Shown: one piece after another, positions 4,693 through 12,108 of the stretch
Layout: each line of letters begins with the position of its first letter
Numbering within the stretch: position 1 is the stretch's first letter
NCBI GenBank assembly: GCA_012728375.1
Contig: JAAYFF010000041.1
Span: 1 to 64,000 of the forward strand
Reading direction: 5' to 3'
Length of the DNA stretch: 64,000 bases
Source of the DNA: Bacillota bacterium
GTDB taxonomy: Bacteria > Bacillota > Dethiobacteria > DTU022 > UBA8154
Notes under the pieces: generated by a model
What the model was told of the DNA's origin: nothing
What the model saw: only the letters and a program-made list of their open reading frames with translations
Database searches by the model: none
Made by a program: the position numbers and the translations under genes

Positions 4693-4721
4693 TTGCATAT
4701 TATCTAAATTTATTATAGAAT
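4693..4721 (+). promoter_or_regulatory. sigma-A-type promoter for the T-box leader
   Basis: TTGCAT (4693-4698) and TAGAAT (4716-4721) are separated by 17 bases. The predicted start near 4728-4732 is just upstream of the T-box, as expected for a leader-controlled operon. Confidence 0.7.
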
Positions 4722-4740: not shown

Positions 4741-5040
4741 ATTGCCAGCGGCTATGAATGAGAAAAGTAGTCTGGGGGTACTTCCTACAGAGAGGCGGGA
4801 GCCAGAGGCTGTAAGCTCCTCCGGAAGGAACCAGGTGAAGTTCGCTCGGGAGCTTCCGATTGAAACCCCGGAGGGGGTAAGTAGGTCGTTGACGGGTTCT
4901 CTCCCGTTATCCTTGAGGAGGAATAAGGTGCCTTTTGGGCTACACCTTTGTTCCTTTTGCCAAAGAGGGCCTGGTATTTATACCGGTCAACTAGGGTGGT
5001 ACCGCGGAAGATAATCCGCCCCTTGAAGGGGCGGATTTTT
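4741..5040 (+). ncRNA. T-box leader, specifier read as UUC (phenylalanine)
   Basis: The conserved T-box AGGGTGGTACCGCGG is at 4993-5007, followed by a terminator hairpin (5013-5022 with 5028-5037) and a T run. Stem I is recognisable: AGTA at about 4767, AGAGAGG at 4789-4795, and CTTCC/GGAAG pairing (4781-4785 with 4823-4827). A stem-III-like hairpin is at 4892-4907. Aligning the 3' side of the specifier loop to the usual layout puts the specifier codon TTC at 4841-4843, followed by a purine. The TGGT of the antiterminator bulge fits a tRNA with discriminator A, which tRNA-Phe has. The family responds to uncharged tRNA by antitermination. The T-box call is firm; the Phe assignment is a manual reading. 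Confidence 0.92.
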
Positions 5041-5066
5041 TAACGTTCAGGCTTTTTTAAGCCGGG

Positions 5067-5112
5067 GTGTTTACTGCTTTCGTCCCTATGAATGCAGTAA
5101 ACACTTTTTTTT
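5067..5112 (+). terminator. second strong intrinsic terminator between T-box and iorA
   Basis: A perfect 11-bp stem GTGTTTACTGC (5067-5077) / GCAGTAAACAC (5094-5104) is followed by eight T. It lies after the T-box terminator and only 27 bases before the iorA start. No promoter is apparent between it and iorA, so transcription must pass this element as well. A smaller GGCTT/AAGCC hairpin (5050-5063) sits in between. Confidence 0.85.
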
Positions 5113-5138
5113 ATGAATAATTGGAAAGGGGAATAACA

Positions 5139-6896
5139 TTGAAGAAACTAATGACCGGCAACGAAGCCATAGCATACGGGGCTTACCTAAACGGAGTGCG
5201 TGTAGGTGCCGCCTATCCGGGCACCCCCAGTACGGAGATCATGGAAAATTTCGCCAAATATCCCGGAGTATACGCCGAATGGTCACCGAACGAAAAAGTA
5301 GCCTTGGACGTAGGGATCGGTGCCGCCTACGCCGGCACCAGGGCCCTCGTAGCCATGAAACACGTCGGCGTAAACGTCGCGGCTGACTCCCTCTTTTATG
5401 CCGTGTATACAGGGCTAAAAGGCGGACTTGTCCTGGTTACCTCCGACGATCCCGGCATGCACAGCTCCCAGAACGAACAAGACAACCGCAACTATGCCAA
5501 ATTTGCCAAACTCCCCATGCTTGAACCATCCGACAGCGAGGAAGCCAAACAATTTATCGGCTTGGCCCTTCAAATAAGTGAAACTTTTGACACGCCGGTT
5601 ATGCTGCGTACCGTAACCCGCCTGTCCCACTCATCATCACCCGTAGAAATATCGGACGTCACACCTGACCCGGCACCGGCAGACCCTCCCCTGTACGACA
5701 GAAACCCTCTTAAATTTGTTATGGTACCGGCCAATGCTCGCCACCGTCATCGCGTCGTAGAAGAGCGCCTTCAAAAAATTGCCCAATACGCCGAAGAAGC
5801 AGCCATCAATCGCATCGAACCCGGAGACGACAACCTGGGCATCATTGCCGCAGGCTCAGTGTACCAGTATGCGCGGGAAGTTTTTCCCCATGCTACCTTT
5901 CTAAAGCTTGGGATGGTATACCCCTTGCCTGAAAAACTTATTCGCGAATTTGCCTCCCGCGTTAAAACAATAATTGTCATCGAAGAACTCGATCCCTTTC
6001 TCCAAGAACAAATCAACCTCATGGGCATCCCGGCAAGAGGCAAAGACATCTTTCCCATTACCGGGGAATTCAGCCCTGCGCTCATTCGCCAATGCGCAGC
6101 CTCCGCGGGCATTATCCAAGCGCCGGCAGCCAGTGCGGAAGCCGCTGCAGCAGCCGCCACCGCCGCCGAGCTTCCCATACGCCCGCCCATCCTCTGCCCC
6201 GGCTGTGGCCACCGCGGCATGTTCCACGTTTTCCGCGAATCCGGAGCCCTCGTCCTCGGCGACATAGGATGCTACACCCTTGGCTATGCCCCGCCCCTCA
6301 GCGCCATGCACACCACCGGATGTATGGGAGCCAGCATAGGCGTTGCCCACGGCGTTGCCAAAGCCAAAGTAAAGGACCGTATTATCGCAGTAATAGGCGA
6401 TTCCACTTTCTTTCATTCCGGTATACACCCCCTCATCAACATACTCTACAACCAGAGCAACATAACCGTCGTCATTGCCGATAACAGCGTCACAGCCATG
6501 ACCGGCCATCAGCAGCACCCGGGCACCGGCATCACCCTGCAGCAAAAAACCACCCGGGCTATAAACCTCGAACAACTAGTGCGCAGCCTGGGCTTTCAAA
6601 AAGTAGATATCTGCGATCCCTATGACCTAAGCAATCTTGCCCAAACCCTCGAAGCCCACCTGGAAAGCAGCGAACCCTCGGTTATCATTGCCAGGCGACC
6701 CTGTGTCCTTTACACCAAACAAAAAAGTTCGCCCCCCCACGTAGATCCGGAACTCTGTGTCAACTGCGGAACCTGCTTGGAACTTGGCTGCTCGCCCCTC
6801 ATACAGCAGCAAGACTGCGTCTCAATCGATCCCGGCCTGTGCAACGGCTGCGGCCTCTGCGTCCAGGTTTGCCCTGCCGGAGCTATCAGCAAATAG
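5139..6896 (+). CDS. iorA: indolepyruvate:ferredoxin oxidoreductase alpha subunit
   Basis: IorA is the TPP-containing large subunit that interconverts aryl pyruvates (indole-, phenyl-, hydroxyphenylpyruvate) with aryl-acetyl-CoA and CO2, using ferredoxin. The 585-residue protein opens with the typical KKLMTGNEA, carries the CPGCGHR motif at about 353, and ends in two 4Fe-4S motifs (Cys540, 543, 546, 550 and a second set to about 580). TTG 5139 is chosen because GAAAGGGGA sits seven bases upstream; an in-frame TTG at 5121 precedes that site. It is cotranscribed with iorB and an acyl-CoA ligase behind the T-box. Base composition is unusual: one 60-base line at 6181 is 41/60 G+C, while many neighbours are near 45%. 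Confidence 0.95.
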   Translation: MKKLMTGNEAIAYGAYLNGVRVGAAYPGTPSTEIMENFAKYPGVYAEWSPNEKVALDVGIGAAYAGTRALVAMKHVGVNVAADSLFYAVYTGLKGGLVLVTSDDPGMHSSQNEQDNRNYAKFAKLPMLEPSDSEEAKQFIGLALQISETFDTPVMLRTVTRLSHSSSPVEISDVTPDPAPADPPLYDRNPLKFVMVPANARHRHRVVEERLQKIAQYAEEAAINRIEPGDDNLGIIAAGSVYQYAREVFPHATFLKLGMVYPLPEKLIREFASRVKTIIVIEELDPFLQEQINLMGIPARGKDIFPITGEFSPALIRQCAASAGIIQAPAASAEAAAAAATAAELPIRPPILCPGCGHRGMFHVFRESGALVLGDIGCYTLGYAPPLSAMHTTGCMGASIGVAHGVAKAKVKDRIIAVIGDSTFFHSGIHPLINILYNQSNITVVIADNSVTAMTGHQQHPGTGITLQQKTTRAINLEQLVRSLGFQKVDICDPYDLSNLAQTLEAHLESSEPSVIIARRPCVLYTKQKSSPPHVDPELCVNCGTCLELGCSPLIQQQDCVSIDPGLCNGCGLCVQVCPAGAISK

Positions 6897-6929
6897 AAAC
6901 AAACTAAAAAAAGGAGGAGGCCCTTCAAA

Positions 6930-7517
6930 ATGAAAAAAACAGACATCTTAATGGCGGGAGTAGGTGGCCAGGGCACCATCCTGGCCGGCAACATTCTGGC
7001 GCAAGTAGGCCTTAAGCTGGGATACGATGTCAAAAAATCAGAAGTACACGGCATGGCCCAGCGCGGAGGCACAGTCGAGAGCCATGTTCGCTGGGGAGAA
7101 AAAGTCTATGCCCCCCTGATTGAAGAGGGCCATGCGGACTACCTTTTGGGCTTTGAAATGCTCGAAGCAGCCCGCTGGCCTATATACCTGCAGGAGGGCT
7201 CCATTGCATTACTAAACCGTTACCGGATACCTCCCCCCTCAGTAAACCTCGGCAAAGCAAAATATCCTTCCGAAAAGGAGGTTGAATCCATTCTAAAAGC
7301 AGCCGGTGGCCGGGTAATTTGGGTTGACGGGACCGGTACCGCCGAAAAGCTGGGCAATCCTGCGGCCGCCGGGGTGGTCCTGTTGGGCGTGCTTTCCAAG
7401 ATGTTGGGCGGCGCAGAAGAAGTCTGGTTGGATGTTATCGGGAGCCTGGTGCCCGGAAAGTTTCTGGAGCTTAATGAGAAAGCGTTTCTGGCCGGTCGGG
7501 AATTTAATGTAGCGTAA
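6930..7517 (+). CDS. iorB: indolepyruvate:ferredoxin oxidoreductase beta subunit
   Basis: The 195-residue partner of IorA belongs to the pyruvate ferredoxin/flavodoxin oxidoreductase gamma-domain family. The signature GVGGQGT at about residues 10-16 and the MAQRGG block near 48 are clear. It starts 33 bases after iorA behind AAAGGAGGAGG. IorA and IorB together form the functional enzyme. Its cytoplasmic role is electron exchange with ferredoxin during oxidative decarboxylation or reductive carboxylation of aryl acids. Nothing is missing or truncated. Confidence 0.95.
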   Translation: MKKTDILMAGVGGQGTILAGNILAQVGLKLGYDVKKSEVHGMAQRGGTVESHVRWGEKVYAPLIEEGHADYLLGFEMLEAARWPIYLQEGSIALLNRYRIPPPSVNLGKAKYPSEKEVESILKAAGGRVIWVDGTGTAEKLGNPAAAGVVLLGVLSKMLGGAEEVWLDVIGSLVPGKFLELNEKAFLAGREFNVA

Positions 7518-7545
7518 CATTATTATCGAAGGAGGTTTGAAAAAA

Positions 7546-9135
7546 ATGAATTTTGCCCGGTATGGAATTATTAATGCCAAGAAATTTCCTGATAAGGAAT
7601 TTCTTGTAGAATTAAAGCCGTCCGAAAAGAAGAGGAGAGCTCTAACCTGGAAAGCTTTTAATGAAGAGACGAATAAAGTGGCAAATTACCTGCAGAACAA
7701 GATTGGATTAAAAAAAGGAGATTTTGTTTTGCATCTTTTGATGAACAGCCTGGAATGGATAATAACATTTCATGCCATTTTAAGGGTCGGGGCTACGGCT
7801 GTTCCCCTAAATTTCCGTTTTGCCCCTGCAGATATTAAACATGCCGCCGAGGCGTGCAACCCTAAAGCTTTTATTTTTGGTGAGAGTTTTTTACCCAAGA
7901 TAGAGCCTATTAAAAACGAAATGAGCAGTATCAGCGCCTGTATCTGCCTCGGGGATAACGTTCCCGAAGGAATGCACTCTTACGACGAAATAATAAAAAC
8001 GAGCGATCCGGGCGATATTCTTGTTGATGTTGAAAAAAATGCTCCTGCGGAACTTATGTTTACTTCAGGAACGACCGGACCGCCGAAACCGGTTTGCCAC
8101 TCTCATGATACCCTTTACCAGATCGCCATAGGAAATGCCTTGACGTACTGTGAAGGTCATGAGACTGTATACCTTGCACCTCATCCTTTTTATCATAGCG
8201 GAAGTTTCTTTCTATCATTTCCTTCTTATTTGGCAGGCGGCAAGATCGTTATCTTGTTGGAACTTAATGATCCAAGGTATTTACTGGATGCCATTTGTGA
8301 TGAAAAGGTCAACAATGGCTGGGTTTCCGTCCCGACCATGTCCGATTCGGTAAATGCCATTAAAAAAGGGCTTATCGATATCACAAGGTATGATTTTTCT
8401 CATGTTACCGGAAGTATTGTGATTGGTGCCCAACCGGTTCCTTTTTCACTTTTTAAGGATATGAAAACTTTTTTGCCCTTTAAAACCGGCAATATTTACG
8501 GTATTACAGAAGGCGGAGGCGGAGGATTAATAAATCTTTACGATGAAGATGTGTTAACTAAGCCTGGTTCCATTGGCAAGCCTACTTTTAATGTTGAGGC
8601 CCGAATCGTTGATGAAAACGGTATAGATGTCCCTGTGGGCGAGGTTGGGGAGCTTATCCTGCGCGGCCCAAGAAATATGAAAGAATATTTTAGAAACAGT
8701 GAAATGACTGCAGCTACTGTTCGGGATGGCTGGCTTTACACCGGGGATTTGGTGAAAGCGGACGAAGAAGATTACATTTATATTGTCGACAGAAAAAAAG
8801 ATCTGATCATTCGTGGTGGAGAAAACATTTTTCCGGTGGAGATTGAGGATGTTTTGCGACGCCATTCCAAAATAGCCGATGTGGCAGTAATAGGTTATCC
8901 TCATGAACGCTTGGTTGAGATTGCCATGGCTATAGTCCAGCTCCATCCGGGGGAAAAAATGGAGGAGAAAGAGGTTATTGATTTTTGTGCACAGCAAGGG
9001 CTGGCAAAATACAAATGGCCTGAACGAGTTGTTTTTGACTATGTTATTCGCAATGCGACCGGAAAAATTGATAAACCAAAGCTTAGGGAAAAGTATATAC
9101 AAAATAAAGAAATTGCTGTTAGTCAACCGGTTTAA
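7546..9135 (+). CDS. AMP-forming acyl-CoA/aryl-CoA ligase
   Basis: This 529-residue ANL-superfamily ligase activates a carboxylic acid to its CoA thioester through an acyl-adenylate. The P-loop TSGTTGPPKP starts at Thr173, YTGDL is at 398-402, the DRKKD hinge follows at about 412, and the C-terminal catalytic Lys507 is in TGKIDK. ATG 7546 lies nine bases after GGAGGT; a TTG at 7537 abuts the site and is unlikely. It begins 28 bases after iorB and is followed by a terminator, so it is the third gene of the T-box operon. The substrate is not readable from the sequence. An arylacetate such as phenylacetate is suggested by the neighbours; a fatty or alicyclic acid is possible. Confidence 0.88.
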   Translation: MNFARYGIINAKKFPDKEFLVELKPSEKKRRALTWKAFNEETNKVANYLQNKIGLKKGDFVLHLLMNSLEWIITFHAILRVGATAVPLNFRFAPADIKHAAEACNPKAFIFGESFLPKIEPIKNEMSSISACICLGDNVPEGMHSYDEIIKTSDPGDILVDVEKNAPAELMFTSGTTGPPKPVCHSHDTLYQIAIGNALTYCEGHETVYLAPHPFYHSGSFFLSFPSYLAGGKIVILLELNDPRYLLDAICDEKVNNGWVSVPTMSDSVNAIKKGLIDITRYDFSHVTGSIVIGAQPVPFSLFKDMKTFLPFKTGNIYGITEGGGGGLINLYDEDVLTKPGSIGKPTFNVEARIVDENGIDVPVGEVGELILRGPRNMKEYFRNSEMTAATVRDGWLYTGDLVKADEEDYIYIVDRKKDLIIRGGENIFPVEIEDVLRRHSKIADVAVIGYPHERLVEIAMAIVQLHPGEKMEEKEVIDFCAQQGLAKYKWPERVVFDYVIRNATGKIDKPKLREKYIQNKEIAVSQPV

Positions 9136-9159: not shown

Positions 9160-9193
9160 CGCCCGTATTAATATCAGCGGGCGTTCTTTTTTC
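9160..9193 (+). terminator. intrinsic terminator of the iorAB-ligase operon
   Basis: A stem CGCCCG (9160-9165) / CGGGCG (9178-9183) is followed by TTCTTTTTT. It ends the T-box-controlled operon 25 bases after the ligase stop. Confidence 0.8.
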
Positions 9194-10222: not shown

Positions 10223-10987
10223 TTGTCTTTTCAGTTCATTAAAACAGCAAGTGAGGGGAGTATTGTTCGAATAACTTTAAACAGACCTCCCCTTAACGTA
10301 TTGACTATTGCCATGATGGAAGAAATGATTCAAGCTTTTAAATGGGCAAATGAGCAGCCCGGGGGAGTAGTGGTTGTTGATGCCGAAGGAAAAGCCTTTT
10401 CTGCAGGTGTCGATGTCGCGGATCATACTCCGGATAAAGTTAATTCCATGATAGATGTTTTTGACCGGCTTTTCATGGCCATGTCCGAAGTGGAGAAGCC
10501 TATTATCGGTGTGGTAAACGGTGCAGCCCTTGGAGGAGGCTACGAAGTCGTCCTGTTCTGTGATATGGTTATCGCCTCGGAAAAAGCTAAATTGGGCCAA
10601 CCGGAAATAAACGTCGGAGTATTTCCGCCGGTTGCTTGTTATGTACTTCCCCGACTTCTTTCCTGGCCAAAAGCGATGGAGTATCTTTTAAGCGGTGATG
10701 TATTTGATGCTGCCACTGCTGAGAAGTTTGGACTGGTTAATATAGTACTCCCCGCGGAAGGTTTTGCTGAAGGGGTGGAGGCATTCTTACAGAAATTTAC
10801 CAAGCAAAGCCCAGTTGTTCTTGCTATGACCAAAAAAGCAGCCAACGCCGGTCTGAACAAAAATTTTGCAGAAGGTCTCAAAGCCATTGACAACATTTAT
10901 CTGAATGAATTGATGAAAACAGAAGATGCGGTTGAAGGCTTAAAGGCGTTTATGGATAAACGTAAGCCTGTCTGGAAAGGAAAATAA
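10223..10987 (+). CDS. dch: cyclohexa-1,5-dienecarbonyl-CoA hydratase-like crotonase
   Basis: The 254-residue crotonase-fold enzyme has oxyanion-hole segments FSAGVDV (about 69-75) and GAALGGGYE (about 102-110). Diagnostic stretches resemble Dch/BamR of the anaerobic benzoyl-CoA pathway: VADHTPD near 76, KLGQPEINVGVF near 125, and the C-terminal ELMKTEDAVEGLKAF. Dch adds water to cyclohexa-1,5-diene-1-carbonyl-CoA to give 6-hydroxycyclohex-1-ene-1-carbonyl-CoA. A TTG start at 10223 follows AGGGGGGATA. The next gene encodes the matching dehydrogenase, which strengthens the call. A generic enoyl-CoA hydratase is the fallback. Confidence 0.82.
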   Translation: MSFQFIKTASEGSIVRITLNRPPLNVLTIAMMEEMIQAFKWANEQPGGVVVVDAEGKAFSAGVDVADHTPDKVNSMIDVFDRLFMAMSEVEKPIIGVVNGAALGGGYEVVLFCDMVIASEKAKLGQPEINVGVFPPVACYVLPRLLSWPKAMEYLLSGDVFDAATAEKFGLVNIVLPAEGFAEGVEAFLQKFTKQSPVVLAMTKKAANAGLNKNFAEGLKAIDNIYLNELMKTEDAVEGLKAFMDKRKPVWKGK

Positions 10988-11040
10988 TTAAAGGTTTCTT
11001 ATTATTGTACTAAACTTATAATTTCAAGGAGGTATTTATA

Positions 11041-12108
11041 ATGAGCATACCGACAAAAATTGATACCTGGCAAATGGTTGAGCCCGGCAAACTGGAGCGC
11101 ACAACCATTGATGTCCCTGAATTAAAACCGGGAGAAGCGCTGGTTAAGGTGGCTGCTTGCGGCGTTTGTCACACTGACGTGGGCTATTTTTTTGATGGTG
11201 TCCCGACTGTTCAGAAGCCTCCCCTGACCCTGGGTCACGAGGTCAGCGGAACAGTAGTGGCGGGAGATGCTTCGTTAATCGGCAAAGAAGTCATTGTCCC
11301 GGCTGTAATGCCCTGCAACAAGTGCGACATCTGCGCTTCAGGCCGGGGTAACCGCTGCTTGAAACAAAAAATGCCCGGCAACAGCATGGGTATTTACGGC
11401 GGATTTGCCTCCTATATGCCGGTTCCTGCAGACGATCTCTGCATTATCGAAGATCGCAAAGGGATGCCTCTGGAGCATATGGCGGTTATTGCCGACGCTA
11501 TTACTTCCCCCTATCAGGCAGCAATGCGTGCCGGGATTAAAGAGGGGGATTTGGTCATTGTTACCGGAGCTACCGGTGGTATCGGTGTTTATATGACGCA
11601 AATCGCTGCGGCCCTTGGTGCCAAGGAAGTAATTGCTATTGCCAGGAATAAGGAAAAACTGGAGCGCTCATTACAATATGGCGCAACAAAAGCTATCAGC
11701 ACGCTTGATAAAGATGTTAAAGGAATTAGAGATGATTTTCGTGCCTACTGCAAGGAAAAAGGCCTGCCGACCTATGGTTGGAAAATTTTTGAATGCAGCG
11801 GGAGCAAAGTGGGACAAGAAATCGGCCTGGAGCTGCTTTCCTTTGTCTGGAAAATGATTGTTGTGGGCTACGGGATGCAAAAAACGGAATATATGCTCTC
11901 CCGCTTGATGGCTTTTGATGCAGAAATAATCGGTACATGGGGTTGCCTGCCTAAATATTATAAGGACGTTCTTAATATGGTTTTAGACGGCAAAATTAAA
12001 GTCGAACCTTTTGTTGAAGTCAGGCCGATGAGCCAGATTTTGAAAGCCTTTGAGGAATCCCACGCTGGCAAGTTGACGAAACGAATTGTCCTGGTACCTG
12101 ATTTTTAA
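11041..12108 (+). CDS. had: 6-hydroxycyclohex-1-ene-1-carbonyl-CoA dehydrogenase-like zinc alcohol dehydrogenase
   Basis: This is a 355-residue zinc-dependent medium-chain dehydrogenase. The catalytic zinc region has Cys40, Cys43-His44 and His66-Glu67; the structural zinc has Cys92, 95, 98 and 106; the NAD loop is GATGGIG at 176-182. Family-specific stretches MGIYGGFASY (about 116-125), FECSG and GTWGCLPKYY match Had/BamQ, which oxidises the product of Dch to 6-oxocyclohex-1-ene-1-carbonyl-CoA with NAD. It lies 53 bases after dch behind AAGGAGG, and a terminator follows. The next enzyme of the route, the ring-opening hydrolase Oah/BamA, is not in the window. Confidence 0.85.
   Translation: MSIPTKIDTWQMVEPGKLERTTIDVPELKPGEALVKVAACGVCHTDVGYFFDGVPTVQKPPLTLGHEVSGTVVAGDASLIGKEVIVPAVMPCNKCDICASGRGNRCLKQKMPGNSMGIYGGFASYMPVPADDLCIIEDRKGMPLEHMAVIADAITSPYQAAMRAGIKEGDLVIVTGATGGIGVYMTQIAAALGAKEVIAIARNKEKLERSLQYGATKAISTLDKDVKGIRDDFRAYCKEKGLPTYGWKIFECSGSKVGQEIGLELLSFVWKMIVVGYGMQKTEYMLSRLMAFDAEIIGTWGCLPKYYKDVLNMVLDGKIKVEPFVEVRPMSQILKAFEESHAGKLTKRIVLVPDF

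Follow-up and report, generated by a model that had tools for sequence, protein, structure and literature searches.

The window, by which the whole analysed stretch of 64 kb of DNA is meant, carries a three-gene operon behind a phenylalanine (Phe)-specific T-box leader. It encodes both subunits of an indolepyruvate (arylpyruvate):ferredoxin oxidoreductase (IOR; IorA and IorB) and an AMP-forming acyl-CoA ligase, and is probably an arylacetate salvage operon induced by Phe starvation. Sequence evidence establishes the T-box and its codon, the operon, the shared regulon, and the conservation. The ligase substrate, the direction of IorAB, the substrate of a co-regulated symporter, and the transamination are inferred. 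The original prediction had proposed such an arylacetate-to-phenylalanine route, and the UUC specifier, the Phe regulon, the conserved pairing of leader and ligase, and tryptophan (Trp) T-box parallels in other families make it likely, with substrate and direction remaining inferences.

The T-box leader and the promoter

T-boxes turn genes on when the cognate tRNA is uncharged, that is, when the amino acid is short. The features of the operon are as follows.

4693 to 4721, plus strand: promoter TTGCAT-N17-TAGAAT, a weak consensus match whose box is kept upstream of most sister leaders
4745 to 5026, plus strand: T-box leader RNA, Phe-specific (RF00230, 106.3 bits)
4841 to 4843, plus strand: specifier codon UUC (Phe), from the specifier columns of the Rfam alignment; the pheST leader reads alike
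4993 to 5008, plus strand: antiterminator 5' strand AGGG-UGGUACC-GCGGA with the tRNA-end bulge UGGU, invariant in 10 leaders
5013 to 5041, plus strand: terminator 1, the T-box expression platform (fold of 4995-5042: -21.9 kcal/mol, z -2.9)
5067 to 5112, plus strand: terminator 2, with an 11-bp stem, the loop UUUCGUCCCUAUGAAU, and a T run (fold z -5.3; loop present twice in the genome)
5139 to 6896, plus strand: iorA, indolepyruvate (arylpyruvate):ferredoxin oxidoreductase alpha subunit, TTG start (TIGR03336 above cut-off)
6930 to 7517, plus strand: iorB, beta subunit (PF01558 and IOR beta models)
7537 to 9135, plus strand: AMP-forming acyl-CoA ligase, inferred to be an arylacetate-CoA ligase (PF00501 and PF13193; T-box-linked clade, support 100/98)
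9160 to 9192, plus strand: operon terminator (fold z -4.7 and a T run)

A cmscan search of the whole 64 kb returned the T-box as its single match, above the RF00230 gathering score of 93 bits, and the E value of 1.8e-22 rules out a chance T-box. In the Rfam alignment, the specifier stands in the context GAA-G-UUC-G, the usual GAA-N-specifier setting, and the genome's own pheST leader, with an identical GAA-G-UUC, calibrates the reading. The predicted UUC specifier was thus confirmed, and a non-aromatic specifier, which would have refuted the prediction, was not found by the covariance-model alignment. UUC is invariant across the 10 sister leaders of the window leader family; its suitability for the downstream genes depends on the salvage reading. 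The antiterminator and terminator 1 are mutually exclusive, both using the strand 5015-5023, and the antiterminator pairs are formed in all 10 leaders. The window promoter scored below the promoter-prediction cut-off. Among the 10 sister leaders, a cTTGCat-N17-TAaAAT box precedes the majority, and a perfect TTGACA-N17-TATAAT stands before one.

The operon and its genes

IorA scores 691.4 bits against TIGR03336 (IOR_alpha; cut-off 650.9), contains the TPP domain and C-terminal 4Fe-4S domains (PF02775, PF01855, Fer4), and has a clear ribosome-binding site before its TTG start. It is the only full-length copy in the genome, so the possibility that IorAB is one of several genomic copies was rejected. 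The top matches of IorB, which adjoins iorA, are IOR beta models (best 227.8 bits, cut-off 237), and its PF01558 match is clear. By its domains PF00501 and PF13193, the ligase is an ANL enzyme. It lacks the PaaK-type architecture (AMP-binding_C_2, PF14535), carrying PF13193 instead; it reached none of the substrate-specific models, and its nearest solved relatives are a mixture of fatty-acyl and aryl ligases. The three genes lie on the plus strand with narrow gaps and are closed by CGCCCGU-loop-GCGGGCG followed by a T run. All parts of the predicted unit, from promoter and T-box through iorA, iorB, and ligase to the terminator, were thereby located. No aminotransferase gene is present in the operon.

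Adjoining the operon, positions 10223-12108 hold a dienoyl-CoA hydratase-like gene and a gene for 6-hydroxycyclohex-1-ene-1-carbonyl-CoA dehydrogenase, of benzoyl-CoA-type ring degradation. These genes, 1-3 kb downstream (the dehydrogenase at 477 bits, cut-off 339), are the basis for a reading in which the operon feeds aryl acids to that degradation, the ligase activating aromatic or fatty acids with IorAB as an accessory. This is scarcely credible, since the degradation genes lie past a terminator and such a pathway has no need for tRNA-Phe control.

Proposed phenylacetate salvage

In the proposed route, uncharged tRNA-Phe would bind the T-box through the UUC codon and stabilise the antiterminator, allowing RNA polymerase to read iorA, iorB, and the ligase gene; the response to tRNA is itself inferred. 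The ligase would then convert phenylacetate and ATP to phenylacetyl-CoA, both activity and substrate being inferred. AMP-forming ligases favour acyl-CoA synthesis. IorAB, if running in reverse, would combine phenylacetyl-CoA, CO2, and reduced ferredoxin into phenylpyruvate, which a general aminotransferase is presumed to turn into phenylalanine. A symporter with a paralogous leader probably imports the arylacetate, although its substrate is also an inference; a known SSF transporter, PaaL, is a phenylacetate permease, in agreement with such a role.

Several points count against the salvage reading: the route is unneeded for prototrophy, no ligase model fixes the substrate, the operon has no aminotransferase, and a second terminator stands before iorA. 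Moreover, the nearest iorAB clusters without a T-box, with a 2-hydroxyacid dehydrogenase and HGD-D pairs, look like those of aromatic amino acid fermentation.

The Phe regulon in the same genome

The genome (2.38 Mb, 88 contigs) was checked for its content by searches and stretches, and contains 13-14 T-boxes. Those with UUC precede pheST (contig C59), an SSF-family symporter (C21), the window operon, and an aro operon (C62). The aro operon has a tandem Phe-Tyr T-box pair and begins with the genes for DAHP synthase and prephenate dehydrogenase, with further aro genes, named by eye from their sequences, after them. Its leader (L037, G000:C62:18796-19311) carries UUC first (Phe, a weak 46-bit match) and UAC second (Tyr). 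With pheST, the aro operon, and the symporter under Phe T-boxes, the IorAB-ligase operon is placed in a Phe-supply regulon. The chief reason to regard IorAB and the ligase as anabolic is that the remaining members of the group supply or use Phe, although the part of the symporter in supplying Phe is inferred. A gene for prephenate dehydratase (pheA) is present elsewhere in the genome and, together with the aro operon, would allow Phe to be made de novo. Phe auxotrophy was therefore rejected as the reason for the operon, and the route is a salvage route, neither "the Phe pathway" nor the sole route.

A wider salvage, in which other or several aryl acids serve Tyr or Trp besides Phe and Phe is merely the signal, could be imagined since phenyl-, hydroxyphenyl-, and indolepyruvate are all IOR substrates (PMC13285125) and since Trp T-boxes also stand on operons whose IorAB belongs to the same family. 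It is nevertheless very unlikely, because all ten leaders of the window leader family have UUC, and the genome has a separate Tyr T-box, on a DctP-type TRAP transporter operon, and a separate Trp T-box, on the trp operon. The Tyr T-box (UAC) lies at L038 (G000:C68:3053 on). Another T-box (L043, G000:C50:20790) precedes an apparent ABC transporter; UCG (Ser) stands in its specifier columns, UUC begins one base before this, and its specificity is unclear.

Conservation of the leader and the ligase

The leader of iorAB is paralogous to that of the symporter, and the two have in common a hairpin that occurs nowhere else in the genome. A 17-base loop motif 3' of the T-box terminator has exactly two genomic occurrences, one in each of these leaders. 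The motif was searched in 98 genomes of the class, and the matches were read individually for leader and target, except TTTCGTCCCTATGGACG. The leader of T-box plus hairpin was found before iorAB-ligase in G001, of the window's genus; before the ligase alone in G005, G013, G017, and G021; before the ligase with iorAB adjoining in G009; and before the symporter in G001 and G015. Loop-like matches in the more distant G092, G030, G070, and G096 lack a T-box context and were rejected as chance. The TTTCGTCCCTATGGACG matches were set aside without a one-by-one check as probable ordinary T-box terminators.

The seven T-box ligases, from seven genomes and five genera, form one clade in a maximum-likelihood tree (support 100/98), apart from the ligases of iorAB clusters without a T-box; both types of ligase occur in G005 and in G013. 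The conserved target of the leader is thus the ligase more than IorAB. The original prediction had argued that a T-box over IorAB and a ligase has an anabolic logic, and this argument is strengthened by the other UUC T-boxes, which precede pheST, aromatic-biosynthesis genes, and a transporter gene, and by a pairing kept across genera.

Two further observations concern iorAB loci. A UUC T-box (L091:151-417), with an iorAB cluster ~6.6 kb further downstream, is followed by a 128-aa ORF without a Pfam match and an XylR_N-type regulator. In isolate UBA9862 (L095/L179), iorA is split into two overlapping frames, by a frameshift or an assembly error.

Origin of the operon

Relatives without the T-box have genes for an SDR, a thiolase, an OB-fold protein, an amidohydrolase, a 2-hydroxyacid dehydrogenase, and two HGD-D dehydratases, followed by iorA, iorB, and a ligase. 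The window and G001 retain the block from the SDR to the amidohydrolase, and a promoter and T-box replace the dehydrogenase and both dehydratase genes. In the IorA tree, the window copy groups with those of G001 and G002, non-T-box paralogs included. This suggests, by inference, that a Phe T-box came to control a gene set that was reversible and probably fermentative, and that the set was trimmed to its arylacetate-carboxylation part.

A rival reading makes the operon catabolic, with arylpyruvate from Phe oxidised to arylacetyl-CoA and on to arylacetate, as in the oxidative Stickland branch, and the T-box a by-product of rearrangement. The clustering of relatives' iorAB with the 2-hydroxyacid dehydrogenase and HGD-D dehydratases, and the block that remains upstream in the window, agree with this, and all steps of the related tyrosine fermentation pathway are reversible (PMC13285125). 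However, a Phe T-box would then turn on a Phe-wasting pathway just when Phe is short, the link of T-box to ligase has held across five genera and recurs with Trp T-boxes elsewhere, and AMP-forming ligases are poor ATP-yielding partners. The catabolic explanation is thus judged unlikely, and Phe-starvation salvage remains the preferred one.

Trp T-box operons in other families

Among 90 IorA loci in a phylum-wide sample, a T-box stands just upstream of iorA at two loci of one genus (family f11) and one locus of family f14; in that f11 genus, four genomes in all have a T-box before iorA. Since most of the sampled loci have no T-box, such control is a special use and not the rule. The aligned specifier of the f11 and f14 leaders is UGG (Trp) with GAA immediately before it, and the same GAA-UGG occurs in the trp-operon leader of the window genome (L012, minus strand). 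Their RF00230 scores (88-93 bits for f11, 78 for f14) are around or below the gathering score, with E values of 1e-15 to 1e-20. The operon order is T-box, iorA, iorB, and a PaaK-family ligase (PF14535). This same plan with a different aromatic specifier and a different ligase family is the strongest outside support for the salvage reading, and was reached independently of the Phe version in the window. Within the Trp group, the f11 and f14 IorA proteins group together, and the two may therefore share one origin.

The loci L309, L310, L311, L314-L317, and L344 (f11 and f14), with the UGG T-box directly before iorA, iorB, and the PaaK gene, are possible indoleacetate-to-tryptophan salvage operons. 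In G440, a strong T-box of 121.7 bits (L321:464-700, minus strand) lies downstream of iorA; its specifier is possibly UGG, and its target gene extends past the end of the locus. Thermincola, Desulfotomaculaceae, and Sporotomaculum have T-boxes at a distance of 2-5 kb upstream of iorA, but the specifier of these is GCC (Ala) and they start an lrp-aminotransferase unit; they were excluded as support. In L097-L100, L118, and L137, the GCC T-box and lrp-aminotransferase unit are followed, in some cases after a lactate-permease-like gene and/or a PaaK-like ligase gene, by iorAB. A BsrG-like RNA match in Rfam (L100:2951-3195, 68.5 bits) adjoins the Ala T-box in a Firmicutes MAG.

Relation to known systems

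IOR enzymes are bidirectional, and are normally annotated on the assumption of breakdown. Because a T-box specifies which amino acid is scarce, it offers physiological evidence on direction with no assay needed. The aryl-acid route of methanogens (Methanothermobacter and Methanococcus maripaludis) resembles the window operon in its IOR of the same family, its acyl-CoA ligase, and the proposed reductive direction. In contrast, the window operon is bacterial and its control RNA names the amino acid; to our knowledge, no T-box is known for the methanogen route. Reversible arylpyruvate oxidation and a biosynthetic role of IOR in methanogens have been described (PMC13285125). The same 2026 paper assayed an IOR-linked AMP-forming ligase of Bacteroides as an arylacetate-CoA ligase and proposed a biosynthetic role, so that gene pair, ligase type, and proposed role all agree with the window. 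The direction there is argued from the ligase type alone, whereas here it rests on the Phe T-box and its conservation. The HpdDEFG-HpdJ-HpdK tyrosine fermentation (PMC13285125) is alike in its arylpyruvate to arylacetyl-CoA chemistry, but employs another oxidoreductase class with a phosphotransacylase and a kinase, and is oxidative and ATP-yielding.

Feeding studies in rumen bacteria found Phe made from phenylacetate (Allison 1965, cited in PMC7356843), the same net conversion as proposed here. That work is physiology in other organisms, without these genes or their regulation. The window operon is a gene-level candidate for this old observation on anaerobes. Firmicutes T-boxes for Phe and Trp are recorded on tRNA ligases, transporters, and biosynthesis operons, without mention of IOR (PMC2494555). 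They have RF00230 and the specifier logic in common with the window, which differs in its iorAB-ligase target and in a second conserved terminator after the T-box. No report of a T-box before iorAB was found in the open-licence literature searched, and an earlier mention is not excluded; the salvage chemistry is known, and it is regulatory evidence of this kind that was not found there. Taken with the Trp operons of other families, the Phe operon suggests that arylacetate salvage has repeatedly come under amino-acid control in anaerobic Bacillota.

A second conserved terminator

The double-terminator leader is a separate RNA question. Terminator 2, which the original prediction did not mention, sits between terminator 1 and iorA. 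Pairing is retained in 96.9% of its pair cells across the 10 leaders, and both sides have changed in three pairs; its covariation score was reached by 0 of 500 shuffles, and slid controls pair at 26-51%. The evidence is modest because the 10 sequences are close relatives. A simple T-box model leaves a conserved terminator between the switch and iorA unexplained.

All 10 leaders have the same loop strand, UUUCGUCCCU, although its inner-helix partners vary. The strand complements the antiterminator strands AGGG and GCGGAA at ten positions and is the canonical T-box antiterminator 3' strand, whereas the version in terminator 1, CGCCCC, is divergent. This makes an alternative antiterminator possible. 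At equilibrium, antiterminator 1 with terminator 2 (-30.6 kcal/mol) is more stable than antiterminator 2 with terminator 1 (-21.5 kcal/mol), so energy alone does not favour strand exchange. A two-stage T-box, with one antiterminator 5' strand, two successive terminators, and UUUCGUCCCU in the loop of the second, can be offered only as a tentative and rather doubtful idea. Passage of terminator 1 would require uncharged tRNA-Phe; at terminator 2, read-through would depend either on the same antiterminator exchanging strands or on another signal, such as the supply of aryl acid. If this were true, the salvage genes would be under an AND gate, and the leader would be an RNA-encoded marker of reductive arylpyruvate synthesis. 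A second conserved terminator hairpin 3' of a T-box, with the canonical antiterminator strand in its loop as at window 5067-5112, also occurs at L036 (7850-7900, minus strand).
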